Assembly (NCBI GenBank): GCA_022784065.1
Contig: JALFUO010000030.1
Location: 1 to 35,380 of the forward strand
Direction: 5' to 3'
Length of the DNA stretch: 35,380 nt
Source: Bacteroidales bacterium
GTDB taxonomy: Bacteria > Bacteroidota > Bacteroidia > Bacteroidales > Bacteroidaceae
The translations under genes were made by a program, and so were the position numbers. The stretch's first letter is position 1. Each line of letters opens with the position of its first letter. The notes under the pieces are model-generated. The model was not told where the DNA came from and ran no database searches. It saw nothing but the letters and a program-made list of their open reading frames with translations. Below are positions 1,561 through 33,238 of the stretch, piece after piece.

Positions 1561-1670
1561 AGTAAACAAGTAAACGAGTATACAAGTAAACAAGACATGT
1601 TACTCATAATAATATAATTAGCAAGACTTCTCTGTCTCGTCTACTCGTTTACTTGTACACTCGTCTACTA
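1561..1670 (+). repeat. Family C composite repeat C1 (8-bp arms around a core)
   Basis: The left arm (1561-1596) is built of 8-bp units: GTAAACAA, GTAAACGA, GTATACAA, GTAAACAA, then GAC. The core (about 1594-1640) starts GACATGTTACTC and ends GTCTCG. The right arm (1634-1670) reads as the reverse complement of the left-arm units and ends GTCTACTAAAA. By hand alignment, 28 of 36 arm positions can pair, so the transcript could fold into a long hairpin with the core as its loop. It fills the gldK-gldL spacer, oriented with transcription. Confidence 0.85.
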
Positions 1671-1690
1671 AAAATAATTCTCAACCCATT

Positions 1691-2644
1691 ATGTCCAAGA
1701 AAATAAACATCGTGGTACGCCTGCAACACTGGATGGACAGCGTGCCGGGACAGACCTTCCTTAACTACGCATACAGCTGGGGCGCATCGATCGTTATCCT
1801 CGGCGCACTCTTCAAACTCACGCACCTGCCGGGCGGCAACTTCATGCTCTTCATCGGTATGGGCACGGAGGTCGTGGTGTTCTTCCTCGCAGCCTTCGAC
1901 CGCCCGTTCGACAAGAACGAGGTGGGCAAGGAACTCCCGCCCGACTATGAGACGGACGAAGAAATTGCCGACCGCATGGGCATCAGCGATGATGATGAAA
2001 CCAATGAACCCGACAGCGAAGGTGACACCTACCGCGCCGAAGGTCAGCCCATCGGAGGCGGCGGCGTAGTGATCGGCGGCGGCACGGGCGGCGGCACTAT
2101 CATTGTGGCAGGCGGCACAGGCTCGCAGCAGACTGGTTCGCCCGCAGAAGCAACGCCGCAGCAGCCCGACATCGTGCAGGCTGCCCGCGAGGCCATCGCG
2201 CTCAACACGCCGCAGGGCGACGAACCCTTCGAAAACGAGGCACAACGCCTGGCCGCCATTATCCGCGCAGCCAACGACGAACTGCTGCGCCGCGCACAGG
2301 CCGCCCTCTCGCCCGAAATGGAGGAAGCCACGCAGACCTATATCGACAAACTGCGCCTGCTCTCCGAAACCTTCGCGAAAGTGGACGAACAGAGCGCGAA
2401 ACTCACGCGCGACAGCGAGGAAATGGAAAACCTCAGCCGCACGCTCACGGGCATCAACAAGGTGTACGAACTCCACCTCAAAGGCATCAGCCTGCAAGTG
2501 GGCACCATCGAGCAAATCAACGAGCAGACCAACCGCCTCGCACAGCAAATCGAAGAACTCAACGGCGTTTACGGCCGCATGATAGAGGCACTCACGGTGA
2601 ACATGCGCGGCGCACAGCCTGCAAAAGATTTAGCAGATAAGTAA
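1691..2644 (+). CDS. gldL: GldL/PorL, inner-membrane motor subunit of type IX secretion
   Basis: GldL is the inner-membrane protein that, with GldM, forms the proton-driven motor of type IX secretion and gliding. The protein is 317 aa. Two hydrophobic segments sit near the N-terminus (about residues 24-42 and 48-64), separated by the short LTHLPGGN turn; the first holds SWGASIVILGALFKLTH, typical of the family. A low-complexity Gly-rich and acidic linker follows (about residues 80-160, with GGGGVVIGGG). The C-terminal half is a long predicted helical, probably coiled-coil, cytoplasmic region. The ATG at 1691 comes just after repeat C1. The gene lies between gldK and gldM in the canonical order. 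The Gly-rich linker is the part most likely to vary between species. Confidence 0.95.
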   Translation: MSKKINIVVRLQHWMDSVPGQTFLNYAYSWGASIVILGALFKLTHLPGGNFMLFIGMGTEVVVFFLAAFDRPFDKNEVGKELPPDYETDEEIADRMGISDDDETNEPDSEGDTYRAEGQPIGGGGVVIGGGTGGGTIIVAGGTGSQQTGSPAEATPQQPDIVQAAREAIALNTPQGDEPFENEAQRLAAIIRAANDELLRRAQAALSPEMEEATQTYIDKLRLLSETFAKVDEQSAKLTRDSEEMENLSRTLTGINKVYELHLKGISLQVGTIEQINEQTNRLAQQIEELNGVYGRMIEALTVNMRGAQPAKDLADK

Positions 2645-2664
2645 AGGGTTACGCGCCGCAAGGA

Positions 2665-2692
2665 GTAGGGGCGTTTTGCAAAACGCCCGCCC
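2665..2692 (+). repeat. Family A palindromic repeat, copy 2
   Basis: The palindrome GGGCGTTTTGCAAAACGCCC is at 2669-2688, preceded by GTAG and followed by GCC, the plus orientation. It sits in the 79-bp gldL-gldM spacer. The reading frame of gldM stays open back into it through a TTG at 2676, but the ATG at 2724 is a better start. Confidence 0.85.
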
Positions 2693-2723
2693 CATACTCA
2701 TAACCAAAAATAACACAACCATA

Positions 2724-4277
2724 ATGGCAGTAAAGAAAAGACCGGTATCTCCGCGCCAAAAGATGATCAACCTCATGTACATCGTCCTTTTGGCCATGCT
2801 GGCGCTCAACGTGTCGAACGATGTGCTCAAAGGCTTTTCGCTCATCAGCGACAGCCTGCTGCGCACCACCGACAACGCCATGAAGGAGAACCTTGCCCTA
2901 TACGAAGACATCAAGCAGCAACTGGCAGCCAATCCTGAAAAGGTGAAGCCGTGGTTCGACAAGGCGCACATCGTGAAAACCTCCGCCGACTCGCTCTACA
3001 ACCTCGCCGAACGCCTGCGCATCGCCATTGCCCGCGAGGCCGACGGCAAGCACGGCAACCCCGACAATCTGGAAAACAAGGAAGACCTCGAGGCTTCCAG
3101 CCGCATCATGCTCGCCCCCGTGAAAGGTTACGGGCGCAGACTCTATGACGAAATCGGGAAATTCCGCACCACCGTGCTGCAATACGTCACCGACCCGCGC
3201 CAGCGCGCCATCCTCGCCTCCAACCTTTCCACCGACGTGCCGGGCGGCGAAGACAACATCGGCAAGAACTGGGAGCAATACATGTTTGAGCAGATGCCGG
3301 CCATTGCCGCCGTCACGATGCTCGCCAAGCTTCAAAGCGACGTGCGCAAGGCCGAGAACGAGGTGCTCCACACGCTCGTATCCAACATCGACATCAAGGA
3401 TATCCGCGTGAACGAGCTCAACGCCTACTGCCTGCCCGAAGCCACCACGCTCTTCCCCGGCGAAACGTTCCGCTCGCACATCTTCATGGCGGCGGTCGAC
3501 ACCACGCAGCGACCCGAAATCTACGTGAACGGCAAGCGAATCGCCGAAGACGGCTCTTACAACTTCACCGTCGGCTCGCCCGGCGAATATTCCTTCAACG
3601 GCTACATCATGATGCCCAACGCCGCCGGCGAAATCATACGCCGCGACTTCGTGCAGAAATACAACGTCATCGCGCCGCCGATGGGCGCCACCGTCGCCGC
3701 CGACCTCATGAACGTGCTTTACGCCGGCTTTGAGAACCCCGTGAGCGTAAGTGCCAGCGGCGTATCGCCCGACAAGATCAGCCTCGCCATGGCAGGCGGC
3801 ACGCTCACCCCGAAGGGCGATGGCAAATACATCGCCAAGCCCGCCGCCGTGGGGCAGAACGTTACGTTCACCGTGACGGGCGTGGTCAACGGCAAGCAGC
3901 AAACCATGGGCGTGTTCACCTTCAAGGTGCGCAAACTGCCCGACCCCACGGCCTTTATTCGCGTGGGCGACGACATCTTCAAGGGCGGCAAGCTCGCCAA
4001 GGGCACGCTGCTCGGCGCACCGGGCATCGGCGCGGCCATCGACGACGGCCTGCTCAACATTCCTTTCAAGGTGCAGAGGTTCGAGACCGTGTTCTTCGAC
4101 CGCATGGGCAATGCCCGCCCCGAAACGTCCAACGGCGCAGCGTTCAGCGACAACCAGCGCTCCCTCATGCGCGAAACGCGCCGCGGCTCTCGCTTCTACA
4201 TCACCAACGTCCACGTCATCGGCCCCGACGGCATAGCCCGCACCTTGCCGCAAGCCTTGGAAGTAATCGTGAATTGA
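2724..4277 (+). CDS. gldM: GldM/PorM, inner-membrane motor subunit with a long periplasmic shaft
   Basis: GldM pairs with GldL as the type IX motor; its single membrane helix anchors a dimeric periplasmic shaft that reaches the GldK-GldN ring. I chose the ATG at 2724 (517 aa) because it gives the conserved MAVKKRPVSPRQKMINLMYI start. An in-frame TTG at 2676 lies inside a repeat and would add 16 unconserved residues. The membrane helix is about residues 14-32 (MINLMYIVLLAMLAL). The periplasmic part begins as a helical domain and continues into beta-rich domains; one segment reads FPGETFRSHIFMAAVDT and another carries a pattern like VRKLPDPTAFI that I associate with GldM C-terminal domains. gldL lies upstream and gldN downstream across repeat C2. 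Confidence 0.95.
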   Translation: MAVKKRPVSPRQKMINLMYIVLLAMLALNVSNDVLKGFSLISDSLLRTTDNAMKENLALYEDIKQQLAANPEKVKPWFDKAHIVKTSADSLYNLAERLRIAIAREADGKHGNPDNLENKEDLEASSRIMLAPVKGYGRRLYDEIGKFRTTVLQYVTDPRQRAILASNLSTDVPGGEDNIGKNWEQYMFEQMPAIAAVTMLAKLQSDVRKAENEVLHTLVSNIDIKDIRVNELNAYCLPEATTLFPGETFRSHIFMAAVDTTQRPEIYVNGKRIAEDGSYNFTVGSPGEYSFNGYIMMPNAAGEIIRRDFVQKYNVIAPPMGATVAADLMNVLYAGFENPVSVSASGVSPDKISLAMAGGTLTPKGDGKYIAKPAAVGQNVTFTVTGVVNGKQQTMGVFTFKVRKLPDPTAFIRVGDDIFKGGKLAKGTLLGAPGIGAAIDDGLLNIPFKVQRFETVFFDRMGNARPETSNGAAFSDNQRSLMRETRRGSRFYITNVHVIGPDGIARTLPQALEVIVN

Positions 4278-4287
4278 TTTAGTTGAC

Positions 4288-4395
4288 GCGTTTACTAAAA
4301 ACTTGTCTACTCGTTTACTAAAAAACTTGTCTACTCGTCTACTCGTTTACTCGTCTACTCGTTTACTCGTTTACTAAAAAACTTGTCTACTAAAA
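4288..4395 (+). repeat. Family C repeat C2, arm units only
   Basis: This 142-bp spacer between gldM and gldN is filled with right-arm type units (ACTCGTCT/ACTCGTTT, period 8), interrupted three times by junctions of the type TTTACTAAAAAACTTG or GTCTACTAAAAG. No left arm or core is present. The several TACTAAAAA junctions suggest repeated partial copies of the right end, or tandem growth and loss. Confidence 0.8.
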
Positions 4396-4419
4396 GAATA
4401 TCTCAAATATATATATAAT

Positions 4420-5562
4420 ATGTATTCCCTTTTATCCCATAACAGCCGCACGCTCTTCGCGTTAGCCCTTGCCCTCGCCTGCACCCTTGCAGCCGTGGCA
4501 CAGCCGCCTGCACGCCGCAAGGCGGCCGAAAACAAGGAACAGACGGCCGCGCAATCCGCACCCAAAGGTTCTGCCTATCGCGACTTCCCCACAGCGGCGG
4601 CCATGCCCGAAGACGTGTCGTGGCGGCGCGACATCTACCGCTCCCTCGACCTCACGAAGGACGCCAACGCCCCGCTCTACTATCCTACAACGCCCACCAA
4701 CGGCCGCGAAAACCTCTTCACCTACCTCTTCAAGCTCCTTCTGCGCGGACAGGTGAAGGCATACGACTACAAGCTCGACGGCAACGAGGATTTTTCGGAG
4801 AAAAACATCGTCAAGGCCAAGGAGCTCATGGACCGCTACCACATCTTCTATGAGCAGAAGGACGGCAAAATCCGCGTCACCGACAGCGACCTGCCCTCCG
4901 ACGAGGTAAAGGTATATTTCATTAAGGAAAGCACCTACTTCGACCAGCACACCGCCACGATCCGCAAGAAGGTCACAGCCCTCTGCCCCGTGCTCAAGCG
5001 CGGCGACGATTTCGGCGGTGCAGACTCGCAGTACCCCATGTTTTGGGTTAAGATGGACGACGTAGCCCCCTATCTCGGCAAACTCATGCTCATGGGCAGC
5101 AACCTCAACAACGCCGCCATGATGTCTGCCGACGACTTCTTCACGCTCAACCGCTACGAGGGCGACATCTACAAGACCGTAAACCTGCAAGACCGCATCC
5201 TCGCCAACTATTGTACCGAGGACTCGGCCATGAAGAAGGAGCAGGCAAGGATTGAGAAAGAACTCGACGATTTCGACCGCCACGTTTGGGGCAAAGACTC
5301 CGTGGCACCCGACACCATCAGGGTGACCCTCGTGCGCGACACGACGGCGACCGTCACAAAAGCGCCCTCACGCCGCCGCACCTCCTCCACCTCGCGCCGC
5401 TCAAGCGTCAGCAGCAAATCGTCCTCTTCTTCGAAATCATCTTCTAAATCCTCAAGCAGCAAATCGACCTCCACAAAGAAAGCCAAGACGCCCAAAACGC
5501 GCAAACCTTCTACCTCCTCGCGCTCCGGCGGCGGATATAGCGTGCGCCGAGAAAGGCATTGA
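4420..5562 (+). CDS. gldN: GldN/PorN, periplasmic ring protein of type IX secretion
   Basis: GldN binds GldK to form the large periplasmic ring of the type IX system. The 380-aa product starts with a signal peptide (hydrophobic FALALALACTLAAVA, probable cleavage after AVA-Q near residue 28). The family core follows, with the conserved patterns WRRDIYRSLDLTKDANAPLYYP and, later, YPMFWVKMDDVAPYL. The ATG at 4420 follows a TA-rich leader. The last 65 or so residues are unusually rich in Ser, Lys and Arg (RRRTSSTSRRSS, then SSK repeats), a disordered, strongly basic tail that I do not associate with the core fold. It is last in the gldKLMN run and is followed by a good terminator. Confidence 0.93.
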   Translation: MYSLLSHNSRTLFALALALACTLAAVAQPPARRKAAENKEQTAAQSAPKGSAYRDFPTAAAMPEDVSWRRDIYRSLDLTKDANAPLYYPTTPTNGRENLFTYLFKLLLRGQVKAYDYKLDGNEDFSEKNIVKAKELMDRYHIFYEQKDGKIRVTDSDLPSDEVKVYFIKESTYFDQHTATIRKKVTALCPVLKRGDDFGGADSQYPMFWVKMDDVAPYLGKLMLMGSNLNNAAMMSADDFFTLNRYEGDIYKTVNLQDRILANYCTEDSAMKKEQARIEKELDDFDRHVWGKDSVAPDTIRVTLVRDTTATVTKAPSRRRTSSTSRRSSVSSKSSSSSKSSSKSSSSKSTSTKKAKTPKTRKPSTSSRSGGGYSVRRERH

Positions 5563-5662: not shown

Positions 5663-5690
5663 GTCCAAAGGTGATATAAGTGAACTGAAA

Positions 5691-5824
5691 GTAGGGGCGT
5701 TCTGCAGAACGCCCGCCCCGAGCCCAAAACGGTAAAGTGCTCGCCTGAACGCCATCAGCAAACGACGACCAAGCAAACATCAATCAGTCAACCATTCTCC
5801 GGGCGTTCTGCAGAACGCCCCTAC
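5691..5824. repeat. Family A inverted pair (copies 3 and 4), BIME-like
   Basis: Two copies of the variant palindrome GGGCGTTCTGCAGAACGCCC lie at 5695-5714 (GTAG side left) and 5801-5820 (CTAC side right), facing each other 86 bp apart. Both carry the same TTC/GAA variant, so the pair appears to have moved, or been converted, as a unit. The spacer has no gene I can recognise. Confidence 0.85.
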
Positions 5825-5830
5825 TCGTGA

Positions 5831-5999
5831 GACCTTATGTCTTGACTTATTCTACAACGCGCATTTCAAAGGTCGTGGCGCCGGAAATTAAATAAAAAAT
5901 CGATTATCCCATAAGAAATACTTCAAGGATTGACAAACAGACATACTATTCGCACGTTTTTGCCCATTCCTAATTATTTCGGACAACGGGGCGGCTTAT
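5831..5999. other. Intergenic stretch with no recognised feature
   Basis: This is the rest of the gap between the converging gldN and upp genes. It is AT-rich compared with the coding DNA, has no supported reading frame, and shows no clear TAnnTTTG promoter on either strand. A plus-strand open frame starting at 6007 reads across the upp terminator and antisense to upp, and is not a gene. Confidence 0.6.
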
Positions 6000-6795: not shown

Positions 6796-7467
6796 TTATT
6801 TCGTGGCATATCCTGCGCGGGCGAAGCCTTTGAGCTGCAAGTCGAACACGAGCGTTGAATAGGCGGGAATTGAGTTCTTCTCCGTTGCGCCATAACCGAG
6901 CTGCCAAGGGATAAACACTTTCCAGCGGTCGCCTATACGCATATGCTGCACGGCCGTGGCGAACCCGTCTACCGTGGAACTTACAAGCAAACGCGCGGGC
7001 GTGGAGAGGTCGGGATTGAACACGTAGTCGTCGGTGGCATAAAGCCCGGAGTGGTCAAACACATAGCCATTGGCGTACGAGGCCGAAGGCATCAGCCTGC
7101 CCACGTAGTTCACGCGCACCGAGTCGGTGCTGAAAGGGAAACCCGTGCCCGTGCCCCTGTCGATGACCTTGCAGCAAATAGAGTCGGTCACGGCTGCCGG
7201 GGCTGCGGGGTCGGTGGCTTTTGCCGCGCTGCGAAACGTGCGCCAGTCGCAATGCGCTTCCCAGTCATCGCCATACGCCGCCTTGGCCTGCGCCACGGCG
7301 GCTCGGGCTTCTGCCATACGCTCCGCGAAGTAAGCGTTGTTGCGATTGCACCAATCGTCGTACTCCGTATTGGTTTGTTCCGTTTCTTCGCACGAAGCGA
7401 GCGCGGCGGCGAGCAGCGCAAGGCAAGCATACATGATGGGCCGCAGCAGTGTGGCGGTAAGTTTCAT
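6796..7467 (-). CDS. FKBP-type peptidyl-prolyl isomerase lipoprotein
   Basis: The product is a probable cell-envelope prolyl isomerase that helps fold exported proteins. With the ATG at 7467 it is 223 aa and begins with a lipoprotein signal whose lipobox is LASC (Cys26). The frame stays open upstream to 7536, but that region is repeat C3. A linker of about 80 residues, rich in Ala and charged residues, precedes the FKBP domain (residues ~105-220): STDSVRVNYVGRL, FDHSGLY, then GDRWKVFIPWQLGYG and IPAYSTLVFDLQL, the usual FKBP ending. It resembles the gliding-associated isomerase GldI group, but membership cannot be decided by eye. It sits between glyS and upp on the same strand. Confidence 0.88.
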   Translation of the reverse strand: MKLTATLLRPIMYACLALLAAALASCEETEQTNTEYDDWCNRNNAYFAERMAEARAAVAQAKAAYGDDWEAHCDWRTFRSAAKATDPAAPAAVTDSICCKVIDRGTGTGFPFSTDSVRVNYVGRLMPSASYANGYVFDHSGLYATDDYVFNPDLSTPARLLVSSTVDGFATAVQHMRIGDRWKVFIPWQLGYGATEKNSIPAYSTLVFDLQLKGFARAGYATK

Positions 7468-7485
7468 TGGGTCGGGAAGTGATTT

Positions 7486-7580
7486 AGTAAACGAGTTTAC
7501 AAGTAAACGAGTAGACGAGACAGATTTGTCTTGCAAACTATATTTATATGAGTAACTTGTCTTGTTTACTTGTCTACTAA
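7486..7580 (-). repeat. Family C composite repeat C3
   Basis: Read on the minus strand it begins TTAGTAGACAAGTAAACAAGAC, passes through a core starting GACAAGTTACTCATAT and ending GTCTCG, and ends with arm units to TTTACTAAAT. Read on the plus strand, the units GTAAACGA, GTTTACAA, GTAAACGA and GTAGACGA are visible at 7487-7518. It occupies the glyS-FKBP spacer and points with transcription (minus). Confidence 0.85.
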
Positions 7581-7600: not shown

Positions 7601-9139
<1,539 letters not shown>

Positions 9140-9430: not shown

Positions 9431-9508
9431 TTACAAACTTGCTAACACATATTACAAACTTTGTAACACGTATTACAAAGTTTGTAACAAGCATTACAAG
9501 CTTTGTAA
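9431..9508. repeat. Four-unit 21-bp tandem array of a 15-bp palindrome (candidate operator array)
   Basis: Four palindromes start at exactly 21-bp spacing: 9431 (TTACAAACTTGCTAA), 9452 (TTACAAACTTTGTAA), 9473 (TTACAAAGTTTGTAA) and 9494 (TTACAAGCTTTGTAA). The consensus TTACAAA-N-TTTGTAA is a near-perfect dyad, and 21 bp is two helical turns, so all sites face the same side of the DNA. Spacers are 6 bp. It lies between glyS (minus) and the Wza-like gene (plus), about 220 bp upstream of the latter's promoter. This geometry is what cooperative dimer-binding regulators use; no regulator gene is visible here. Confidence 0.75.
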
Positions 9509-9729
9509 CAAAAACTTTCAAGGAAGAAGGAAAAAATTTCAGCAAGCGAATAAAAACTATCTGCACATTCCGTAAAAAAAACAAGGGGATAATGTGGATT
9601 GCCAGCGCACTTGGTTGCCACGGCCTCGGAGTCGGCTATTCTGCATCGCCACTATGAAAATCGTGGCAGATATGACAAAGAAAAATTAATAAATCTTCAA
9701 ACAAACTTTTACGCTTCAATTATTTATAC
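9509..9729. other. Non-coding stretch upstream of the export lipoprotein
   Basis: No supported gene. The frame of the downstream lipoprotein is open back to about 9599, but the extra 60 residues have no secretion-signal character and run through the promoter, so they are not considered coding. Confidence 0.5.
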
Positions 9730-14724: not shown

Positions 14725-14742
14725 AGCGACACCGGTGAACAA

Positions 14743-14792
14743 GTAGGGGCGTTCTGCAGAACGCCCGCCAAACGCCCGCCAAACGCCCGCCA
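14743..14792 (+). repeat. Family A copy 5 with a tandem tail
   Basis: Palindrome GGGCGTTCTGCAGAACGCCC at 14747-14766, preceded by GTAG. Its right flank has been duplicated so that the 11-bp unit AACGCCCGCCA appears three times in a row (14760-14792). It lies between the DUF4492 gene and cydA. Confidence 0.85.
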
Positions 14793-14835
14793 AGCAAACA
14801 AGCCACAATAACCTTTTAACCTTATATATATAAAT

Positions 14836-16341: not shown

Positions 16342-16346
16342 ATATT

Positions 16347-16500
16347 TTAGTAAACAAGTTTTTGAGTAAACGAGTAAACAAGTTTTTGAGTAAACAAGTA
16401 AACGAGTGAACAAGTAAACGAGACAAGTTACTCATATAAAATATAATTAGCGCGGCATTCATGTCTCGTCTACTCGTCTACTTGTTTACTCGTCTACTAA
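16347..16500 (+). repeat. Family C composite repeat C4, the longest simple copy
   Basis: It starts TTTAGTAAACAA and has nine left-arm 8-bp units in perfect register, including two of the variant GTTTTTGA. The core starts GACAAGTTACTCATAT and ends GTCTCG, and the right arm ends GTCTACTAAAA at 16500. It fills nearly all of the cydA-cydB spacer, oriented with transcription. Confidence 0.87.
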
Positions 16501-16516
16501 AAAATTAATAACGATT

Positions 16517-18060: not shown

Positions 18061-20679
18061 ATGCCAGAGGAAACACTCACGCCGATGATGAAGCAGTTTT
18101 ATGACCTCAAGGCCAAAAACCCTGATGCCATTCTGCTGTTCCGCTGCGGCGACTTTTACGAAACATATGCTTCCGACGCCGTGACGGCGGCGGGCGTGCT
18201 GGGCATCACGCTCACGCGCCGCAGCAACAAAGGCAGCGGGCCTGCAACAGAGATGGCGGGCTTTCCCTTCCACGCGCTCGACACTTATCTGCCGCGCCTT
18301 ATCCGCGCAGGTTTCCGCGTGGCCATCTGCGACCAGTTGGAAGACCCGAAGCTCACGAAGAAACTCGTGAAGCGCGGCATCACGGAGCTCGTGACGCCGG
18401 GCGTGGCAATGGCGGACAACGTGCTCAACGCGAAAGAAAACAATTTCCTCTGTGCCATTCACTTCGGCGCGGCGGCCGTGGGCTTGTCGCTGCTCGACAT
18501 CTCAACGGGCGAGTTTCTCGTGGCAGAGGGGCGGGCGGAATATATCGACAAGCTCTTGAGCGGCTTTGCGCCGAAAGAGGTGCTGGTGCAGCGCGGCAGC
18601 AAGGCCCGCTTCACGCAGATGTTCGGCACGCGCTTCTTTATCTTTGAGGTAGACGACTGGGCCTTCACGGGCAACACGCCGCGCGAGAAGCTGCTGAAGC
18701 ATTTCGAGGTGAAAAACCTCAAAGGCTTCGGCGTGGAACACTTGAAAGATGCCACGGTGGCGGCAGGCGTTATCCTCTGCTACCTCGACATGACGCAGCA
18801 CACGCACATCGGCCACATCACCTCCCTGCGCCGCATTGAGGAAGACCGCTACGTGCGCCTCGACAAGTTCACCGTCCGCAATCTCGAATTGGTAGAACCG
18901 ATGTGCGAGGGCGGCGCTTCTCTCTTCTCCGTCATCGACCGCACGCTCACGCCGATGGGCGCAAGGCTGCTGCATCGCTGGGTGCTCTTTCCCTTGCGGG
19001 CGGTGGGCGACATCGTGCAGCGGCAAAACGGCGTGGAGCATTTCTTCCGCGAGCCGGAGTTTCGCGACCTCTGCGAAATGGAACTGCCGAAGGTGGGCGA
19101 TATGGAGCGCATCGTGTCGAAAGTGGCCACGGGGCGCGTCAATCCGCGCGAGTTGCAGCAGCTGCGAGGTGCGCTCGAAAGCACGGCGCTGCTGAAATAT
19201 GCCTGCACGCATTCCGACGACCCCTCTATCAAGAAAATCGGCGAGCGGCTCAACCCGCTGCCAGAGTTGCGCGAGCGCATCGGCAAGACCCTCACCACCG
19301 ACCCGCCCATACTCGTGGCGAAGGGCGGCGTGATTACTTCCGGCGTGAGCGAAGAGCTGGACGAGCTGCGCAACATTTCTTCCTCCGGCAAGGACTATCT
19401 TCTGAAAATACAGCAGCGCGAAAGCGACGCTACGGGCATTCCGAGCCTGAAAATCGGATTTAACAACGTGTTCGGTTATTACATCGAGGTGCGCAATAAC
19501 TATAAGGCGCAAGTGCCCGCCGACTGGGTGCGCAAGCAGACGCTCGCGCAGGCCGAACGCTACATCACGCAGGAACTGAAAGAATACGAGGAGAAGATAT
19601 TAGGGGCTGAGGACAAAATTCTTGCGCTCGAAACGGAACTCTATGCACAATTGCTGAATTACGTAGGCAGCTACATCGCTCCCTTGCAGGAAGATGCCGC
19701 CGCGCTTTCCACGCTCGACTGCCTGCAATCGCTCGCGGCCGTGGCCCGCGAACGGCGTTACGTGCGCCCGGCGGTGGACGAAAGCCTCGCCATCGACATT
19801 CGGCAGGGACGGCACCCCGTGATTGAAACGTTGATGCCGATCGGCGAGGAATATGTGGCAAACGACGTGATGCTCAACACCACGACGCAGCAAATCATCA
19901 TCGTGACCGGCCCGAACATGGCAGGTAAGAGTGCCCTGCTCCGCCAAACGGCACTCATCACGCTCTTGGCGCAAATGGGCTCGTTCGTGCCTGCCGACAG
20001 CGCAACTATCGGCGTGGTAGACAAAATATTCACCCGCGTGGGGGCGAGCGACAATATCTCGCTCGGCGAGAGCACCTTTATGGTGGAGATGAACGAGGCG
20101 GCAAATATCATGAACAACCTGAGCGAGCGCAGCCTCGTGCTCTTCGACGAACTCGGGCGCGGCACGTCGACCTACGACGGCATCTCCATAGCATGGGCCA
20201 TTGTGGAATATATCCACGAGAACCCGAGGGCGCACGCCCGTACGCTTTTCGCCACGCACTATCACGAGCTCAACGAAATGGAGCGCCTCTTCCCGCGCGT
20301 CAAGAACTGGAACGTCTCGGTGCGCGAGGTGAACAACCGCGTGGTGTTTCTGCGCAAATTGCAGCCGGGCGGTTCGGAGCACTCTTTCGGCATACATGTG
20401 GCCCGCCTCGCGGGTATGCCCGCCTCAATCGTGAAGCGTGCCAACCAAATCCTGCACGACCTCGAAAGCGCGGGGGCGAAGGCGGGAAGCAACCTGCCCA
20501 AGGGAGAAAGCATCTCGCAGGTTGATACCACCACGGGCACGCAACTGAGTTTCTTCCAACTCGACGACCCCGTGCTCAAACAGATACGCGACGAGCTGCT
20601 GCACATCGACGTGAACAACCTCACGCCGCTCGAAGCCCTCAATAAGCTCAACGACATCAAGCGCATCCTTAAAGGATAA
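18061..20679 (+). CDS. mutS: DNA mismatch repair protein MutS
   Basis: MutS recognises base mismatches and starts mismatch repair. I chose the ATG at 18061 (872 aa); the frame is open to a TTG at 18016, but that lies in the promoter leader. The mismatch-reading motif is at residues 32-34 (Phe-Tyr-Glu in RCGDFYETY). The Walker A motif GPNMAGKS is at 617-624, the Walker B and signature are [16 protein letters not shown], and the ATPase histidine region is [11 protein letters not shown]. The C-terminus has the short helical tail of MutS1 proteins. The Asp in place of the usual Met/Lys before FYE is within family variation. nadA follows 136 bp downstream on the same strand. Confidence 0.97.
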
Positions 20680-20680
20680 A

Positions 20681-20792
20681 GTTTACTCGTCTACTTCGTG
20701 ATTTTCGGCTGCGCTCGGCATAGCCCGAACAAGTTCGGCTCTGCGCTCGCTTGCACGAAAATCTCCTCGTTTACTAAAAAACTCGTCTACTA
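20681..20792 (+). repeat. Family C arm units (C5) split by a family B copy (B1)
   Basis: GTTTACTCGTCTACT starts at 20681. Family B copy B1 (20700-20766, GATTTTCGGCTGC...GAAAATCTCC) then interrupts it, and CTCGTTTACTAAAAAACTCGTCTACT resumes. B1 has the imperfect dyad around CCGAACAAGTTCGG. B1 and B2 (23611-23677) differ at only four of 67 positions. The site lies between mutS and nadA. Confidence 0.8.
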
Positions 20793-20815: not shown

Positions 20816-21814
20816 ATGACCGCAATTAAAGAAACTTGGAAAACGCTCGGCTATATCGACGAGCCTGTGCCCGAAGGCATAGACCTCAAAGCCGAAATCC
20901 GCAAATTGTGCCAAGAAAAAAATGCCATAATCCTGGCACACTATTATACCGAAGGCGTTATTCAGGACATCGCCGACTTTATCGGCGACAGCCTCGCCCT
21001 GGCACGCAAGGCTGCCAAGACTGACGCGGACATCATCGTGATGTGCGGCGTGCACTTCATGGGCGAAACCAACAAAATTCTCTGTCCCGAAAAGAAAGTT
21101 CTCATTCCCGACCTCAACGCCACCTGCTCGCTGGCGGAAAGCTGTCCGGCAAAGGAGTTCGCCGAATTTGTGCACGGCCACCCCGACCATACGGTGATTT
21201 CCTACGTCAATACCTCCGCTGCCACCAAGGCTGTGACGGACGTTGTGGTCACCTCCGGCAACGCCAAGCAGATTGTGGAGAGTTTTCCGAAGGACGAGAA
21301 GATTATCTTCGGCCCCGACCGCAACCTCGGCGCATACATCAACAGCATCACGGGGCGCAACATGCTCCTCTGGGACGGCGCGTGCCACGTGCACGCACGC
21401 TTTTCGGTGGAAAAGCTCGTTGCGCTCAAGCAGCAATATCCCGAAGCCAAGGTGCTGGTACACCCCGAGTGCAGGGGCCCGATTGTGAAACTGGCAGACG
21501 TGGTGGGGTCTACCGCCGCCTTGCTCAAATATGCCGTAAACGCCGACACGAAGACCTTCCTCGTGGTGACGGAAAGCGGCATCTTGCACGAAATGCAGAA
21601 GCAATGCCCCGACAAGCAGTTCATACCCGTGCCGCCCGACGACAGCACCTGCGGCTGCAACGAATGTAACTTCATGAAGCTCGTGACGCTCAAGAAGGTC
21701 TACAACACCCTGCGCTACGAATGGCCCACAGTGGAAGTGCCTGCCGACATCGCCAAGGCAGCCGTGCGCCCCATCAACCGTATGCTGCAACTCTCGGAGC
21801 AGCTCGGGCTGTAA
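20816..21814 (+). CDS. nadA: Quinolinate synthase NadA
   Basis: NadA condenses iminoaspartate with dihydroxyacetone phosphate to quinolinate in NAD synthesis, using an oxygen-sensitive [4Fe-4S] cluster. The ATG at 20816 gives 332 aa; an in-frame TTG at 20804 is less likely. Cys77 in VMCGVHFMGE matches the first cluster ligand. Other conserved cysteines are in VHPECRGP (Cys219) and in the C-terminal STCGCNECNFMKL. The N-terminal ILAHYYTEGVIQDIADFIGDSL holds the conserved His and Tyr of the active site, and VGSTAALLKYA is the usual last repeat motif. The partners nadB and nadC are not adjacent. Confidence 0.96.
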   Translation: MTAIKETWKTLGYIDEPVPEGIDLKAEIRKLCQEKNAIILAHYYTEGVIQDIADFIGDSLALARKAAKTDADIIVMCGVHFMGETNKILCPEKKVLIPDLNATCSLAESCPAKEFAEFVHGHPDHTVISYVNTSAATKAVTDVVVTSGNAKQIVESFPKDEKIIFGPDRNLGAYINSITGRNMLLWDGACHVHARFSVEKLVALKQQYPEAKVLVHPECRGPIVKLADVVGSTAALLKYAVNADTKTFLVVTESGILHEMQKQCPDKQFIPVPPDDSTCGCNECNFMKLVTLKKVYNTLRYEWPTVEVPADIAKAAVRPINRMLQLSEQLGL

Positions 21815-21817
21815 GAG

Positions 21818-21838
21818 TTTTAGTAAACCCGTCTACAA
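21818..21838 (+). repeat. Family C remnant C8 (two ends only)
   Basis: TTTAGTAAAC is followed after two bases by GTCTAC. These are the left and right ends of family C with everything between deleted. It lies 4 bp after the nadA stop, in the nadA-GH20 spacer. Confidence 0.6.
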
Positions 21839-21875: not shown

Positions 21876-23519
21876 ATGAAGACACGCTTTTTCCTTTTGG
21901 CGACCCTGCTTTATATCTGCCAGGCCGCGAGTGCGGCCGTTCCCTCGCTTTCGCTCATTCCGCTGCCCGAGCATATGGAGCAGTGCGACGGCACGAGCAG
22001 TTTCGCGAAGAAATTTACCATACGCCTGGACTCGAAAGCTTCGGCAGAGGTTGAGGCTGTGGTGAGCCGTTTCTCCCATGAGTTTTGCACCGCCACGGCC
22101 ATGGACGTGCAGCGCACGAAGAAGAGTTCCGCCACGATGACGCTCTCGCTCGATGCAGCCTTGGCAAGCGAGGCATATACGCTCGAAGTGGCGGGCGGCA
22201 AGGTGCGCATCTCGGCTGCACAGCCTGCCGGTTTCTTCTATGCCCTTCAAACTTTCAAGCAGCTGTTTCCCCGCTCCGTCATGGCAGGGCAGCCCTGCAC
22301 GGACATCAAAACGGTTTGGACCGTCCCCGACGTGCGCATCAGCGATGCCCCGCGCTTTGCCTGGCGCGGCTTCATGCTCGATGAGGGCCGCCATTTCTAT
22401 GGAAAAGAAGCCATAAAGCGCGTGCTCGACTTGATGTCGGTTTATAAAATGAACCGCTTCCACTGGCATCTGACCGAAGACCAAGGCTGGCGCGTAGAAA
22501 TAAAGAAATATCCGCGCCTCACGGAAGTGGGCGCATGGCGCAACAGCAAGGTGCTCGGCTGGGGCGACGTTAAGCCCGACGGGCAGCGTTACGGCGGCTT
22601 TTATACGCACGAAGATGTCAAGGAGATAGTGGCTTATGCCGCCGCGCGTTTCATTGAGATTGTTCCCGAAGTGGACATTCCGGGCCATTCGCAGGCCGCC
22701 GTTGCGGCTTATCCCGAGTTTCTTGCCTGCGACCCCGAGCAGCCGCACGAGGTGTGGCTGTGGCAGGGCGTTTCGGCCGACGTGATCAATGTGGCGGAGC
22801 CGCGCGCCGTGCAGTTTGCCTGCGACGTGATTGACGAGCTCGCCGCGCTTTTCCCCTTCGGCTACATTCATCTCGGCGGCGACGAATGTCCCACGGACAA
22901 GTGGGAGCGCAACGCGCTGTGCCAGGCGCGTCTGAAAGAGATAGGCTCTGAAAAGTATCGCGACCTGCAAATCGACTTTTATCATAAATTGCAGCAGCAC
23001 ATCGCCCGGCAGCCGCTGGAAAAGCAGCGCAAGCTGATTTTCTGGAACGAAGTGTTGCACGGCAACACGCAGCCGCTTGGCAAGGACATCGCCATAATGG
23101 CTTGGATTGGCGCGGACGGCGCGGCACGCGATGCCGCAGGCCGCGGGTTCAACACAATCCTTTCGCCGCAAATTCCCTATTACATCAATCGCCGCCAGTC
23201 GCCGCTCGCCACGGAGCCGCGCTCGCAGGGCCACGGCACGGAGACCGTAGAGGCAGTATATAATTATGTGCCCGCCAAAGATGTGCCTGCCGATTTGCAA
23301 GCAAAATATCTCGGCGTGCAGGCCAATTTCTGGACGGAATGGGTAGAGGATGCGGCAACGGTGGAGTATCTGATGATGCCGCGCCTCGCCGCCGTGGCCG
23401 AAGCGGGCTGGACGCCGCAGCCGCGCCGCTCCTATCCCGATTTCCTCAATCGCCTGCAAGGCGAAGCAGAGCTTTACGAACTGATGGGCGTAAGCTATGG
23501 CAAGCATGTTTTTGAGTAA
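21876..23519 (+). CDS. GH20 beta-N-acetylhexosaminidase, exported
   Basis: This enzyme removes terminal beta-linked GlcNAc or GalNAc from glycans by substrate-assisted catalysis. The 547-aa product starts with a signal peptide (FFLLATLLYICQAASA, cleavage likely after ASA), so it acts in the periplasm or beyond. The N-terminal GH20b-type domain runs to about residue 150. The catalytic barrel begins at FAWRGFMLDEGRHF and carries NRFHWHLTEDQGWRVEIKKYP. The catalytic pair is Asp336-Glu337 in HLGGDECPTDKW, and the late Trp motif is QANFWTEWV. The final residues VFE and the stop are encoded by repeat C6, so the 3' end was shaped by the repeat. An MFS transporter and GH130 follow. Confidence 0.95.
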   Translation: MKTRFFLLATLLYICQAASAAVPSLSLIPLPEHMEQCDGTSSFAKKFTIRLDSKASAEVEAVVSRFSHEFCTATAMDVQRTKKSSATMTLSLDAALASEAYTLEVAGGKVRISAAQPAGFFYALQTFKQLFPRSVMAGQPCTDIKTVWTVPDVRISDAPRFAWRGFMLDEGRHFYGKEAIKRVLDLMSVYKMNRFHWHLTEDQGWRVEIKKYPRLTEVGAWRNSKVLGWGDVKPDGQRYGGFYTHEDVKEIVAYAAARFIEIVPEVDIPGHSQAAVAAYPEFLACDPEQPHEVWLWQGVSADVINVAEPRAVQFACDVIDELAALFPFGYIHLGGDECPTDKWERNALCQARLKEIGSEKYRDLQIDFYHKLQQHIARQPLEKQRKLIFWNEVLHGNTQPLGKDIAIMAWIGADGAARDAAGRGFNTILSPQIPYYINRRQSPLATEPRSQGHGTETVEAVYNYVPAKDVPADLQAKYLGVQANFWTEWVEDAATVEYLMMPRLAAVAEAGWTPQPRRSYPDFLNRLQGEAELYELMGVSYGKHVFE

Positions 23520-23697
23520 ACAAGTAAACGAGTAAACAAGTAAACGAGACAAGTTTCTCGTATAGAACAATTACCAAGACATTTCTATCTCGTCTACTCG
23601 TTTTCTTTGAGATTTTCGGCTGCACTCGGCATAGCCCGAACAAGTTCGGCTCTGCTCTCGATTGCACGAAAATTTCCTTGTAAACTCGTCTACTAAA
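23509..23697 (+). repeat. Family C composite repeat C6 with a nested family B copy (B2)
   Basis: The first unit GTTTTTGA (23509-23516) lies inside the GH20 coding end. It is followed in register by GTAAACAA, GTAAACGA, GTAAACAA and GTAAACGA, then a core starting GACAAGTTTCTC and ending ATCTCG. The right arm CGTCTACTCG is interrupted by family B copy B2 (23611-23677) and resumes as CTTGTAAACTCGTCTACTAAAA. It lies between GH20 and the MFS gene, oriented with transcription. Confidence 0.87.
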
Positions 23698-25068: not shown

Positions 25069-26025
25069 ATGCTTACCCCCATACCTTGGCAGGAACGTCC
25101 TGCCGGTTCCAAAGACATCATGTGGCGTTACACCGAAAACCCCGTTATCGGCCGCTACGACATTCCCTCTTCCAACAGCATCTTCAACAGCGCCGTGGTG
25201 CGCTTCGGCGATGGCTTTGCCGGCGTGTTCCGCTGCGACAACAAGCGCGTGCAGATGAACATCTTTGCCGGCTTCTCCAAGGACGGCATCCACTGGGACA
25301 TCAACCACGAGCCGATAAAGTTCGTGCCCGGCAATACGGAGATGATCGACAGCGACTACAAATACGACCCGCGCGTGGCTTGGATTGAAGACCGCTACTG
25401 GGTGACCTGGTGCAACGGCTACCACGGCCCCACCATCGGCATTGCCTATACGTTCGACTTCCAGACGTTCTATCAATGCGAAAATGCCTTTCTCCCCTTC
25501 AACCGCAACGGCGTGCTGTTTCCCGAAAAGATTAATGGCAAATACGCCATGCTTTCGCGTCCGAGCGACAGCGGGCACACGCCCTTCGGCGACATTTACA
25601 TCAGTTTCAGTCCCGACATGAAATATTGGGGCGAACACCGCAGCGTGATGAAGACCGTACCCTTTGAGCAGAGCGCATGGCAGTGCCTCAAAATCGGCGC
25701 GGGCACCGTGCCTATCCGCACTGACGAGGGTTGGCTGATGTTCTACCACGGCGTAATCCAGACGTGCAATGGCTTCCGCTACTCTATGGGTGCCGTCCTG
25801 CTCGACCTTGCCGACCCCACGAAGGTGCTGCACCGCTCCATGGAATACCTTCTCGCGCCCGCAGCTCCCTATGAACTTTGCGGCGATGTGCCCAACGTGG
25901 TGTTCCCCTGCGCCGCCCTGCACGAGGGCGACCGCGTGGCCGTTTACTATGGTGCGGCAGATACCTGCGTAGGCATGGCGTTTGGCCATATCTCCGAAAT
26001 CATCGAGTTTTTGAAAAAGCAGTAA
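25069..26025 (+). CDS. GH130 phosphorylase, likely beta-1,4-mannosyl-N-acetylglucosamine phosphorylase
   Basis: GH130 enzymes split beta-mannosides with phosphate. The 318-aa protein has no signal peptide, so it is cytoplasmic, where phosphate and the imported disaccharide meet. It closely resembles what I remember of B. thetaiotaomicron BT1033, which converts Man-beta-1,4-GlcNAc to mannose 1-phosphate and GlcNAc in N-glycan use: [57 protein letters not shown], and a C-terminal [14 protein letters not shown]. These contain the five-bladed propeller motifs. The position between an MFS carrier and a GH92 mannosidase supports this specificity over mannosylglucose or mannan phosphorolysis. Confidence 0.93.
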
Positions 26026-26031
26026 TTAAAA

Positions 26032-26110
26032 GTAGGGGCGTTTTGCAAAACGCCCGCCCTTTGCGCCGAAAGGCAATCAATAAAAGGGTGTTTTGCAAAA
26101 CGCCCCTACT
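26032..26110. repeat. Family A inverted pair (copies 6 and 7), BIME-like
   Basis: GGGCGTTTTGCAAAACGCCC at 26036-26055 (plus orientation) faces a copy at 26086-26105 with one change (GGGTG start), 30 bp apart. The pair fills the GH130-GH92 spacer and ends about 14 bp before the GH92 start codon. Confidence 0.87.
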
Positions 26111-26123
26111 AGATTCTTATTTT

Positions 26124-30195: not shown

Positions 30196-30215
30196 GCACA
30201 TCAGGAAAATAACAA

Positions 30216-30260: not shown

Positions 30261-30270
30261 GACCCATAGG

Positions 30271-30301: not shown

Positions 30302-30321
30302 CTTTTATGCAGCCTTTTTCA

Positions 30322-30873
30322 TCAGTTCTGAATCACTACGGCGTCTTGCGCGGGGGTATAGGTTATGGTGTAGTTTTCGAGGTTGTCGCCCCGATTGCCC
30401 TCAATGATGATGCCCTTGTTGGAGAGGTCGTAAAGGCGGTTGCAGTGCGGGCATCGGGCATGGGGCAGGGTGAGGTGGAGCGTCAGTCGCTTGGTGAGCG
30501 CGGAGGCGTTGTAGCACGTGGGGCAAGCGAGGTCGTAGGCCACAAGCCGCATCTGACCGTTCATATCCACACCGGGCGGCATACCGACGATGAAGCCGGC
30601 TATGAACTGCGGCTGGCCGTAGGCATCGAGCGCGGTGCGCGGATAGGAGGTGCTCTTGCCGTCGGGCGCGGTGAATATATAATATTGCGCCGAGAACGTG
30701 ACGGTGCAGAACATGCCAGGGCTGGTGAGGGCTGCCAGCAGCTGCGGCGCGCCAGTGACGGGCGAGAAGCGCATGAAGGCGCGATAGCTGGAGCGTTCGC
30801 TCTCGGCCTTGTCGCACGAGGCGCACAGCAACAGGGCGGCGAGCAACGAGGGGAGGATAAGCGGTTTTTTCAA
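30322..30873 (-). CDS. Lipoprotein with two CxxC pairs, Rieske-like or zinc-ribbon-like; function unknown
   Basis: The best start is a TTG at 30873 (183 aa), which gives a compact lipoprotein signal with lipobox CASC (Cys20); a GTG at 30918 would add 15 residues before it. Two cysteine pairs, CPTC and CPHC, are about 30 residues apart in the second half (YDLACPTCYN and HARCPHCNRLYDL). The spacing and the following YDLSNKGIIIEG recall a Rieske-like fold, but the usual histidine ligands are absent (CxxC in place of CxH and CxxH), so a zinc or disulfide site is as likely. The N-terminal half (FMRFSPVTGAPQL, PGMFCTVTF) is unknown to me. It is last in the minus-strand run, 47 bp after the SRPBCC gene. 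Confidence 0.75.
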   Translation of the reverse strand: MKKPLILPSLLAALLLCASCDKAESERSSYRAFMRFSPVTGAPQLLAALTSPGMFCTVTFSAQYYIFTAPDGKSTSYPRTALDAYGQPQFIAGFIVGMPPGVDMNGQMRLVAYDLACPTCYNASALTKRLTLHLTLPHARCPHCNRLYDLSNKGIIIEGNRGDNLENYTITYTPAQDAVVIQN

Positions 30874-30920
30874 TATCTTATTATTTATGTGTGTGAAATG
30901 CGGGCAATGCCTCCGCACCC

Positions 30921-31385
30921 TTATTGGGCGGCGGCAAGCAGGTCGGCAAGTCCGTTGGCGGCCTGTTGCAGCGGCTTCGACACCATGCCTTTCATAAAGA
31001 AATTCACCTCTGCGCCAATCGTGACGCGCAGTTTTGCCTCACCCTCGCCATGCGGCAGGAGCTGTATCCACACATTGACGGGAATGGGCGTACCCTCGCC
31101 GGCAAACTTGATGCACTTGGGTTCGTCGCGCTCGATGATGCGCAGCGTGATTTTCCCAAGTGGCGAGCCGATGGAGAGCGTGTCGCGGTCGAAGGTCATG
31201 GTTTGCAACTGCTCTTTTGCCTGCGCTATCTGCTCGGGCGTGAGTTGTGCCGCCATTTTCTCCTGCACGGCGGGGTCTTCGAGTTTCTCGCGCAAAGTTT
31301 CAAGGTTACGCAGGTCGGAATAGCGCGCATAAAGCGCATCAACGGGTTGGCTTACGTATTTAACGTCGCTTTCAAATTTTGTCAT
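30921..31385 (-). CDS. SRPBCC (START-like) family protein
   Basis: This 154-aa soluble protein without a signal peptide starts MTKFESDVKYVSQPVDALYARYSDLRNL, the typical opening of SRPBCC/polyketide-cyclase-like domains, which form a helix-grip fold around a hydrophobic cavity. The last helix (FFMKGMVSKPLQQAANGLADLLAAA) fits the fold's long C-terminal helix. A charged helical insert (about residues 30-62) is specific to this type of Bacteroidetes protein as far as I can tell. Its ligand is unknown. It begins 3 bp after the fucP stop, so it is almost certainly co-transcribed with the fuc genes, although no role in fucose use is established. Confidence 0.85.
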   Translation of the reverse strand: MTKFESDVKYVSQPVDALYARYSDLRNLETLREKLEDPAVQEKMAAQLTPEQIAQAKEQLQTMTFDRDTLSIGSPLGKITLRIIERDEPKCIKFAGEGTPIPVNVWIQLLPHGEGEAKLRVTIGAEVNFFMKGMVSKPLQQAANGLADLLAAAQ

Positions 31386-31388
31386 GGG

Positions 31389-32687
31389 TTAATTGCGTTT
31401 TGTTTTCAATGAAATATATCCGTAGCGGGTCACTATGAGGAAGCAAATAAGCGGCAGAGCAAACGACACGTTTACTGCCGGGTGGTTGAGGATTGTGCCG
31501 AGGTCAATCACAGCGCCTTGCAGCGGCGGCATGAGTGCGCCGCCCACGATGGCCATTACCAAAAAGGCTGCACCGAGGGCCGTGTCTTGGGCATCAACAT
31601 CTTCGAGGGCTATGCCGTAGATGGTGGGGAACATCAACGACATGAACGCGCTGATGGCCACGAGACAATACAGGCCGGCGATGCCGTCGATCAATATGGT
31701 GCCGAGCGTGCACAGCGATGCGCCGATGCCGAATATCATGAGCAGGCGGCGCGGATTGACGCGGCGCATCAATCCCGTGGCCACAAAGCGGCCGCAGAGG
31801 GCGAGGCTCATGGCGAAGATGTTGTAGTTTTGCGCCGTGGCCTTGTTGATGCCGAGGCGGTCGGCGTATTGGATAATAAACGTCCACACCATGATTTGTG
31901 CCGCTACATAAAACATCTGCGCCAGCACGCCCTCGCGGTAGTGGCGGTTGTGCCAGAGGCGGCGCAGCGAATGAGAGGCGGGTGCAGACGCTCCTTGCTC
32001 ACCCGTGCCGGCGATGGCGGGCATCTTCTTGAGCGCAACGATGAGGAAGACTATCAGCACCACGATGCCGAGTGCCACGTAAGGGTCGCGGATTACGGCG
32101 AGGTCGTGGAGGCGAATGCCGGCCTTTTCGCTTTCGGAGAGCGTGCCGAAGATAATTTCCCCGGCAGCGTTGCGGCGGTCAGACCACAGCGCGGGCAGCA
32201 CGATGAGCGAGGCGACGGCCATGCCCGAAAGCGAGCCTACGGGATTGAAAGCCTGGGCAAGATTGAGGCGGCGCGTGGAGGTTTCTTTGCTGCCGAGCGA
32301 AAGGATAAAGGGGTTGGCGGTCGTTTCGAGGAATGCAAGGCCGAAGGTGAGGATATAGAGCGAGAAGCAGAAGAACGTGAAGTTCTGATACTCAGCAGCA
32401 GGAATGAAGAGGAACGCCCCCGTGGCGTAAAGTCCGAGCCCCAGCAGTATGCCGCTCTTGTAGCTGTAACGCCTGATGAAGAGTGCGGCGGGTATGGCCA
32501 TGGTGGCGTAGCCGCCGTAGAAGGCAAACTGTATCATCGAGGCCTTTGCGGCCGAAAGTTCCATGACTGTCTGGAACGCAGCCACCATAGGATTGGTGAT
32601 GTCGTTGGCAAAGCCCCAAAGGGCAAAGAGCGTGGTGACGATGACGAATGTGGCGAGGTACTTTTTCTCGACAAGTTTCTGTTTCAT
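31389..32687 (-). CDS. fucP: L-fucose:proton symporter FucP
   Basis: FucP is a 12-helix MFS carrier that brings L-fucose into the cell with protons. The 432-aa protein has the two acidic residues known to matter in the E. coli protein: Asp29 in FALWGFANDITNPM and Glu121 in AFLETTANPFI. Other family marks are the FYGGYATMAIPAAL helix and LNLAQAFNPVGS. Start ATG at 32687, 24 bp after the mutarotase stop. The gene order fucA, fucK, mutarotase, fucP is the same as in the B. thetaiotaomicron fucose operon, which supports fucose over other sugars carried by this family. Confidence 0.92.
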   Translation of the reverse strand: MKQKLVEKKYLATFVIVTTLFALWGFANDITNPMVAAFQTVMELSAAKASMIQFAFYGGYATMAIPAALFIRRYSYKSGILLGLGLYATGAFLFIPAAEYQNFTFFCFSLYILTFGLAFLETTANPFILSLGSKETSTRRLNLAQAFNPVGSLSGMAVASLIVLPALWSDRRNAAGEIIFGTLSESEKAGIRLHDLAVIRDPYVALGIVVLIVFLIVALKKMPAIAGTGEQGASAPASHSLRRLWHNRHYREGVLAQMFYVAAQIMVWTFIIQYADRLGINKATAQNYNIFAMSLALCGRFVATGLMRRVNPRRLLMIFGIGASLCTLGTILIDGIAGLYCLVAISAFMSLMFPTIYGIALEDVDAQDTALGAAFLVMAIVGGALMPPLQGAVIDLGTILNHPAVNVSFALPLICFLIVTRYGYISLKTKRN

Positions 32688-32711
32688 GGGCGATGCGGTT
32701 TTTGTATCTGT

Positions 32712-33104
32712 TTACTCATATAAATAAAACATGCGTTCCATCAACTGCCATTTCTCTGCCGAAGAAAGGCCCTGCTTCACGAGTTGAAACTCTGCCATAT
32801 AGTCTTCCCACTCGGCTTGGCGCGGCAGTGTGGCGAGGCGTGCCATTGCCGTGTCCCAATCGAAGTCAAGGGGCGTATCCACAATCATGAAGAGGCGCGT
32901 GCCGAGGATGTAGAGCTCCATTTCGAGGATTCCCACTTGGCGTATGCCGTCGAGGATTTCGCGCCAAGCGTGCTCGCGGCTGTGGCGACGGCGATACTCT
33001 TTGATGAGTTCGGGGTTGTCGCGCAGTTCGAGCGTTTGGCAATAGCGTTTCACGGGCTGGCGATATTCTTTGACGCGATAGCCCGTCTGAGGTGTTTCGT
33101 GCAT
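32712..33104 (-). CDS. RhaM-family (DUF718) sugar mutarotase, probably acting on L-fucose
   Basis: This 130-aa protein of the L-rhamnose mutarotase family interconverts sugar anomers so that the isomerase receives the right form. The fold signature is YCQTLELRDNPELIKEYRRRHS, with His41 matching the catalytic His22 of E. coli RhaM, followed by MELYILGTRLFMIVD and WEDYMAEFQ. The first 18 residues are a short extension. By sequence it is in the rhamnose family, but its place between fucK and fucP suggests it replaces FucU and works on L-fucose; this is inferred from context. It is separated from fucK by repeat C7. Confidence 0.88.
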   Translation of the reverse strand: MHETPQTGYRVKEYRQPVKRYCQTLELRDNPELIKEYRRRHSREHAWREILDGIRQVGILEMELYILGTRLFMIVDTPLDFDWDTAMARLATLPRQAEWEDYMAEFQLVKQGLSSAEKWQLMERMFYLYE

Positions 33105-33120
33105 GATTATTGTTTCTTAT

Positions 33121-33238
33121 ATAAGTAGACGAGTAGACAAGTAAACGAGTAAACGAGACAGAAATGTCTCGCAAATTATATTTATATGAGTGACTTGTCT
33201 TGTTTACTCGTTTACTTGTTTACTCGTTTACTAAAATA
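33121..33238 (-). repeat. Family C composite repeat C7
   Basis: Read on the minus strand it starts TTTTAGTAAACGA, which includes the fucK stop codon TAG (33231-33233). It has left-arm units, a core starting GACAAGTCACTCATAT and ending GTCTCG, and a right arm ending CTCGTCTACT. The 3' part of the core forms a 7-bp hairpin (CGAGACA ... TGTCTCG). It fills the fucK-mutarotase spacer and points with transcription (minus). Confidence 0.87.

Follow-up and report, generated by a model that had tools for sequence, protein, structure and literature searches.

In eukaryotic foldback transposons, a variable middle is flanked by long terminal inverted repeats, each of them made up of short tandem subrepeats. 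In bacteria, RUP, NEMIS (Correia) and similar miniature inverted-repeat transposable elements (MITEs) are about 100-150 bp long, have a TA target and have an IS630-type partner. To our knowledge, known bacterial mini-transposons carry a unique terminal repeat and show no strict regard for gene direction, and neither the repetitive extragenic palindromic sequences and their paired forms (REP/REPIN) nor the bacterial interspersed mosaic elements (BIMEs) contain 8-bp arrays. Here, we describe a dispersed composite element in a 35,380-nucleotide stretch of a Bacteroidales genome (family Bacteroidaceae; assembly GCA_022784065.1, contig JALFUO010000030.1, positions 1 to 35,380), which we call the window. 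In contrast to known mini-transposons, the ends of this element are arrays of one 8-bp word, its copies leave the gaps between convergent genes empty, and it points mostly one way in operons. We regard it as an unusual new variety of bacterial mini-transposon.

The element resembles the far larger foldback transposons in build alone, and we claim no relationship between them. The TA found at both of its ends is compatible with the TA target of RUP and NEMIS. Unlike here, where the ends are unit arrays, the ends of RUP and NEMIS are unique sequence, and no match to the DDE_3 family was found in this host. RUP and NEMIS (PMC3733652) share further features with the element: they are non-coding, have inverted ends, often lie beside genes and are transcribed into hairpins. 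REP/REPIN and BIMEs (PMC3733652) are likewise dispersed intergenic palindromes of inverted modules with possible effects on mRNA. The element differs from them in that no sound association with a REP-associated tyrosine transposase (RAYT) was found and convergent gaps are avoided.

Of the known systems, BrickBuilt, a MITE of Porphyromonas gingivalis, comes closest (PMC4596501). Like our element, it belongs to the Bacteroidales, is always intergenic, contains a short tandem repeat in variable number and has its copies within one species. The two differ in build: BrickBuilt has 23-nt direct repeats within its leader and tail and small inverted ends (PMC4596501), whereas our element has inverted arms that are themselves composed of 8-bp units, with a core between them. 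BrickBuilt was also reported to have promoter activity, and 4-nt duplications of its target were observed; our element shows no duplication and nearly lacks the host promoter word.

Build and copy number of the element

The canonical element is 117-119 bp long and consists of TTTTA, four GTNNACRA units, a core of about 45 nt bordered by GACA on one side and TGTC on the other, four inverted units and TAAAA. To count its copies, we searched the draft genome of the host (2.23 Mb, 103 contigs, 85% complete) with a covariance model built from the five window copies, accepting E values up to 0.01. The search returned 131 rows, in which both strands of one place were often listed. After the better strand of each place was kept, at least 85 distinct core places remained, a lower bound with 150 of 1044 first-look candidates scored. 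The sequence-only reading of the window had made its case depend on further copies in the host, and these were found. The word GTAAACRAGTAAACRA gave 37 matches in the window with up to three mismatches, against a shuffled mean of 0.54. Without mismatch, the host genome contains it 190 times, whereas the reversed control pattern gave 0 matches there.

Conservation halts at TTTTA on the left and at TAAAA or TAATAAA on the right in the 56 copies that passed the filter for usable ends. The terminal inverted repeats are 41-nt arms, about 80% of which can pair between both ends. Thus, the element has several features of a MITE: a small non-coding sequence with many dispersed copies, defined ends and terminal inverted repeats. 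Exactly four units per side were counted in 36 of the 85 copies, and many others are shortened, extended or interrupted; the unit number is therefore less variable than the sequence-only reading had claimed. The same reading had a conserved core and arms of varying length under different pressures. We found near-invariance both at the borders of the core and in the unit letters GT..AC, and it is the AT-rich middle of the core that varies in letters and length, so that part of this distinction survives.

Aligned in the direction of the core, all five window copies have GTNNACRA units on the left, a core with GACA and TGTC at its borders and inverted units on the right; left arm, core and inverted right arm lie at the coordinates that had been noticed from the letters. 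Of three further places noticed as arms or ends, two were upheld (4289-4398 and 20679-20791), and the third proved to be a short end-like stretch. The features of the window are as follows:

1559..1674, plus strand: site 1, full element with 4+4 units, core region 1595-1635; a gene (115-1554) on one side and a GldL-type gene at 1691 on the other
4289..4398, plus strand: arm-only array with TACTAAAAAACTTG junctions, its pyrimidine strand being sense; it precedes a gene at 4420
7483..7579, core on the minus strand: site 2, 2 left and 4 right units; neighbours are genes for a class II tRNA synthetase (7601-9139, minus) and an FKBP (6796-7467, minus)
16345..16502, plus strand: site 3, in the cydA-cydB spacer, left arm extended by extra units including GTTTTTGA, 4 right units
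20679..20791, plus strand: arm and end fragments flanking the inserted repeat also seen in site 4, no core
21806..21838, plus strand: short end-like stretch TTTTAGTAAACCCGTCTAC, no array
23509..23697, plus strand: site 4, right arm split by another repeat (about 23606-23676); neighbours are a GH20 gene, whose stop codon lies within the first unit, and an MFS gene
33118..33238, core on the minus strand: site 5, full element with 4+4 units; neighbours are an FGGY kinase gene (33231-34655, minus), whose 3' end is overlapped by the element end, and rhaM (32712-33104, minus)

Placement and direction relative to genes

None of the 85 copies lies inside a predicted gene. With two copies at contig edges excluded, 83 copies could be classified: 77 between co-directional genes, 6 between divergent genes and 0 between convergent genes. 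For background, 371 kb of the host genome free of core copies were used, in which 151 gaps of 60-700 bp were counted (106 co-directional, 23 divergent and 22 convergent; 10 of these gaps hold solo arrays). The deficit in convergent gaps (0/83 versus 22/151) has p = 7e-5, and p = 6e-6 when the element-free gaps near copies (15/77) are pooled in. The core is directed along the genes in 60 of the 77 co-directional copies (p = 9e-7). Of 68 typed copies, 58 have an arm polarity that agrees with the genes (p = 2e-9). For 32 intact co-directional copies, subtracting the element leaves gaps with a median length of 42 bp; the background medians are 84 bp for co-directional, 117 bp for convergent and 349 bp for divergent gaps. 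These gene calls and gap lengths point to placement at predicted operon-internal junctions. Examples in the window are cydA/cydB, the gene ahead of the GldL-type gene, and the FGGY kinase gene beside rhaM.

The word TAnnTTTG, the commonest host promoter word among those tested, occurs in element-free upstream regions in 38 of 84 cases on the sense strand and 11 of 84 on the antisense strand. In type-A forward regions, it was found in 1 of 49 on the sense and 6 of 49 on the antisense strand. The segment thus nearly lacks the host promoter motif expected of a mobile promoter or a promoter inverton, and a promoter reading was ruled out. An intrinsic terminator was also ruled out by reading the copies, since a T-run follows the hairpin on neither strand.

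Two forms of the element, types A and B, were distinguished. All nine canonical type B copies have the arms of type A in the opposite orientation with the core reversed, and their arm consensus agrees with that of type A at 41/41 letters in the right arm and 38/41 in the left. Thus, one young subfamily has its core inverted within fixed arms. Among 16 type B copies compared, 12 are nearest another B copy, one is a tie and three, all divergent, are nearest an A copy. A single flip followed by spread would cover most B copies, and further flips are possible. In co-directional gaps, the arm polarity runs along the genes in 49 of 54 type A and 9 of 14 type B copies, and the core of type B is forward in 5 of 14. 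The arm polarity therefore tracks gene direction better than the core does, with type B alone not significant (p = 0.42).

Evidence for movement

Two copies on separate contigs are identical across 119 columns, several pairs share 98-99% identity, and the median pairwise identity of 36 canonical copies is 77%. Movement was recent, because two unlinked copies are identical. In the host, the cydA-cydB spacer is 178 bp long and is filled by the element. The element is absent from this spacer in all 15 congeners examined, none of which has even two tandem units there. Three tandem units were found in none of 80 named cydA loci (494 kb). The best relatives of the host cydA are from Bacteroidales, with 65-68% identity.

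Copies were also seen nested in the cores of other copies, a full one at C27:1880-2200 and a shortened one at C4:46180-46460 (host contigs), indicating that copies insert into each other. At C73:7080-7520, right halves of the element stand head to tail three times with the unit GACATCTCTGTCTCG...CTACTAAAA, and at C26:12220-12560 the right half occurs once more, after TACTAAA. These head-to-tail halves possibly arose by aberrant movement or slippage.

Hairpin folding

A long hairpin can be formed by all copies. For covariation, we used 65 rows that had been fitted to the model and are therefore biased toward structure; they include one reverse strand of a place already present and one place held in two loci. 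Paired cells made up 84.5%, versus 85.3% in shuffles, a share that 499 of 500 shuffles equalled or exceeded; compensatory cells numbered 9 versus 21.2. For the 26 canonical type-A copies, 856 paired cells were counted, against a shuffled mean of 873. RNAalifold predicted ten pairs on the alignment, and none of them was kept through changes on both sides. At the element sites, no Rfam family matched. The structured RNA module that the sequence-only reading had allowed for thus found no backing as a conserved fold, which the covariation counts ruled out.

Each unit has a constant set of letters, namely G, T, A, C and A. This constancy, together with pairing that is not maintained, speaks for units recognised as sequence rather than as a conserved RNA fold. 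Perfect palindromes are unstable in bacteria, and their avoidance could produce the pairing deficit, as could arm flips between the two forms. Of 26 type A copies, 24 have the weaker fold on the strand that runs in core direction (mean -35.8 versus -46.0 kcal/mol), so the usual orientation places the weaker hairpin in the mRNA.

Distribution outside the host

A 22-base core pattern had no match in the genome_contigs or viral_contigs collections, in which the host's own records were possibly excluded. The covariance model was run on 61 genomes (the host and 60 relatives) and matched in four: strongly in the host and weakly in G003, G030 and G055. In 12 chosen genomes without the host, weak matches were found in four, the best with 37.9 bits versus 104.1 in the host, and most rows fell in G180, a member of another family of the order. 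Counting the host, exact 16-base unit pairs were found in 8 of the 58 genomes searched in the genus and in 25 of the 393 searched in the order. The reversed control also gave one or two matches in about 34 genomes of the order search, and single matches there therefore mean little. G180 had 82 unit-pair matches and 0 control matches. The loci of G003 and G180 that we read have inverted arms surrounding different cores. Thus, strong core copies were seen in this host alone among the genomes searched, and arm-type arrays occur elsewhere in the order with other cores.

Carriage by plasmid or phage was rejected, with a single 35-base match in a staphylococcal plasmid and no phage matches. No description of the element was found in the open-access full-text literature, arm words included; the arm words matched in one unrelated paper.

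A different tandem repeat of about 145 bp was observed in G055 (loci L033, L035 and L156), bearing two-unit arms of the same kind.

Proposed explanation

Any explanation has to cover the observed spread, boundaries, arm arrays, placement, orientation and core inversion between copies. We consider that these are probably best explained by a MITE-like, non-autonomous element whose fold-back arms resemble iterons and which is filtered into operon junctions. The units would be read letter by letter, like iterons, by a putative recombinase acting in trans. Insertions in genes, promoters and terminator regions would be avoided or lost, and the orientation that places the weaker hairpin in mRNA would be retained. 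Where it is transcribed, the element can form an intercistronic hairpin, which may affect operon expression. The mobile alternative of the sequence-only reading has in its favour the many dispersed copies, identical unlinked copies, absence of the element from cydA-cydB in 15 congeners and inverted ends; neither a target duplication beyond a possible TA nor, in the Y1_Tnp and DDE_3 families searched, a partner transposase was found.

Several results weigh against this explanation. No partner transposase was found in a search that covered the Y1_Tnp and DDE_3 families only. There is no base-exact empty site, the 15 congeners being too diverged at cydA-cydB. The flanking direct-repeat test comprised 1,764 combinations of length (2-10) and offset with 100 permutations, and its 15 largest excesses are all of 2-3 bp. 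A few of these exceed all 100 permutations, as can happen with so many tests, and no signal was found at 4 bp or more among the 56 copies; the TA that is constant at either end may stem from target duplication or belong to the element itself. The placement counts depend on genes called with our own hexamer script, not a standard annotator. The total absence from convergent gaps is unaccounted for by selection on mRNA. Finally, 11 composites in G180 comprise 6 co-directional, 4 convergent and 1 divergent.

The convergent composites of G180 (4/11) and the solo arrays of G003, which have no orientation bias (12 to 8), ruled out placement as a general property of the arms. All three composites of G003 are co-directional. 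In sampled DNA of the host itself, the pyrimidine strand of solo arrays is sense in 25 of 34 co-directional ones, and 4 of 43 classifiable solo arrays lie in convergent gaps. These counts limit the strict placement rule to the core-bearing family of this host.

Alternative explanations

The element may instead be a functional intercistronic RNA element (a processing site, stability hairpin or translational spacer) that was spread and kept by selection at operon junctions and that would act in its mRNA form, which we consider unlikely. It would fit the empty convergent gaps (0/83), the cores in sense direction (60/77), copies that sit a few bases past a stop and before a start codon, and a promoter word in just 1/49 sense and 6/49 antisense type-A forward regions. 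However, pairing below that of shuffles, a deficit of compensatory change, none of ten RNAalifold pairs kept through two-sided changes, the lack of an Rfam match and a strong core confined to one species all speak against it. An inverton, with the core as a segment that switches by flipping within the arms, would account for the reversed core in 9/9 canonical type B copies, and the three divergent B copies with cores nearest A may reflect more than one flip. Nevertheless, the other B copies compared (12/16 nearest another B, one tie) are as one old flip followed by spread predicts, the promoter word is nearly absent and one assembled state is available per site; we consider a switch highly improbable.

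A REP/REPIN-like element moved by a RAYT, a Y1 tyrosine transposase, appears improbable too, if less so than the inverton. Paired inverted modules with a spacer, intergenic position, a length of about 100 bp, no visible target duplication and right ends that start GTAG on the other strand are all as such an element would have, and the host has one Y1_Tnp match. However, this match is partial (positions 2-110 of 121), and the gene looks damaged in its 3' part and lies amid another repeat family. Among 13 transposase loci examined, unit arrays were found in one, the host's own Y1 locus, about 1 kb from the gene, and in none of the other 12; of 16 genomes, 12 have Y1_Tnp matches, and these include genomes that carry arrays and genomes that do not. 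Copies that flank or are linked to a RAYT gene, as REP/REPIN have, were thus not found, and the damaged match and array-poor loci leave a RAYT partner unsupported. An IS630-type partner was likewise not supported, with 0 DDE_3 matches in the host.

Returning to the MITE-like element, a more far-reaching version of it can be put forward tentatively. It would be a mobile intercistronic element that is inserted or retained in one orientation, specifically at operon junctions, with fold-back arms of 8-bp units read by a protein, a direction set by arm polarity and not by the core, and a core that is invertible within fixed arms; its arms would be shared across Bacteroidales families with lineage-specific cores, and it would place a uniform hairpin spacer in dozens of operons. 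If the placement arises by targeting, the insertion mechanism would sense operon junctions. If it arises by selection, the copies would offer a natural experiment at about 75 junctions on the effect of a hairpin on downstream expression. That the arms recur in another family around different cores suggests a wider Bacteroidales repeat class, with a DNA-binding partner that can be sought.

Other repeats and RNAs nearby

A second palindromic repeat with the motif GGCTGCRCTCGGC...GCTTGCACG is inserted in element arms at 23606-23676 and 20694-20760 of the window. It was also seen elsewhere in the host (C3:3149, C86:19187, C33:9825 and C76:3580), and a cousin is inserted in cores. Of 32 places with this motif in sampled host DNA, 23 are no more than 150 bp from a core copy. 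In locus L206, the host Y1_Tnp gene has a similar motif around it, suggesting that this gene may belong to the second repeat family.

A third dispersed palindrome, GTAGGGGCGTTYTGCARAACGCCC, was found in the window at 18-54, 2657-2709, 5683-5831, 14735-14793, 26024-26116 and 35303-35355, and at 16 places in sampled host DNA. At 9431-9510, there are nearly four 21-bp units of the TTACAAACTTTGTAACA type, and this array is itself palindromic. As a possible partner of the element, the small RNA FopS was inspected by eye only, and nothing was evident. The window segment 10787-10852 matches the Bacteroidetes FopS paralogous small RNA family in Rfam with 77.1 bits.

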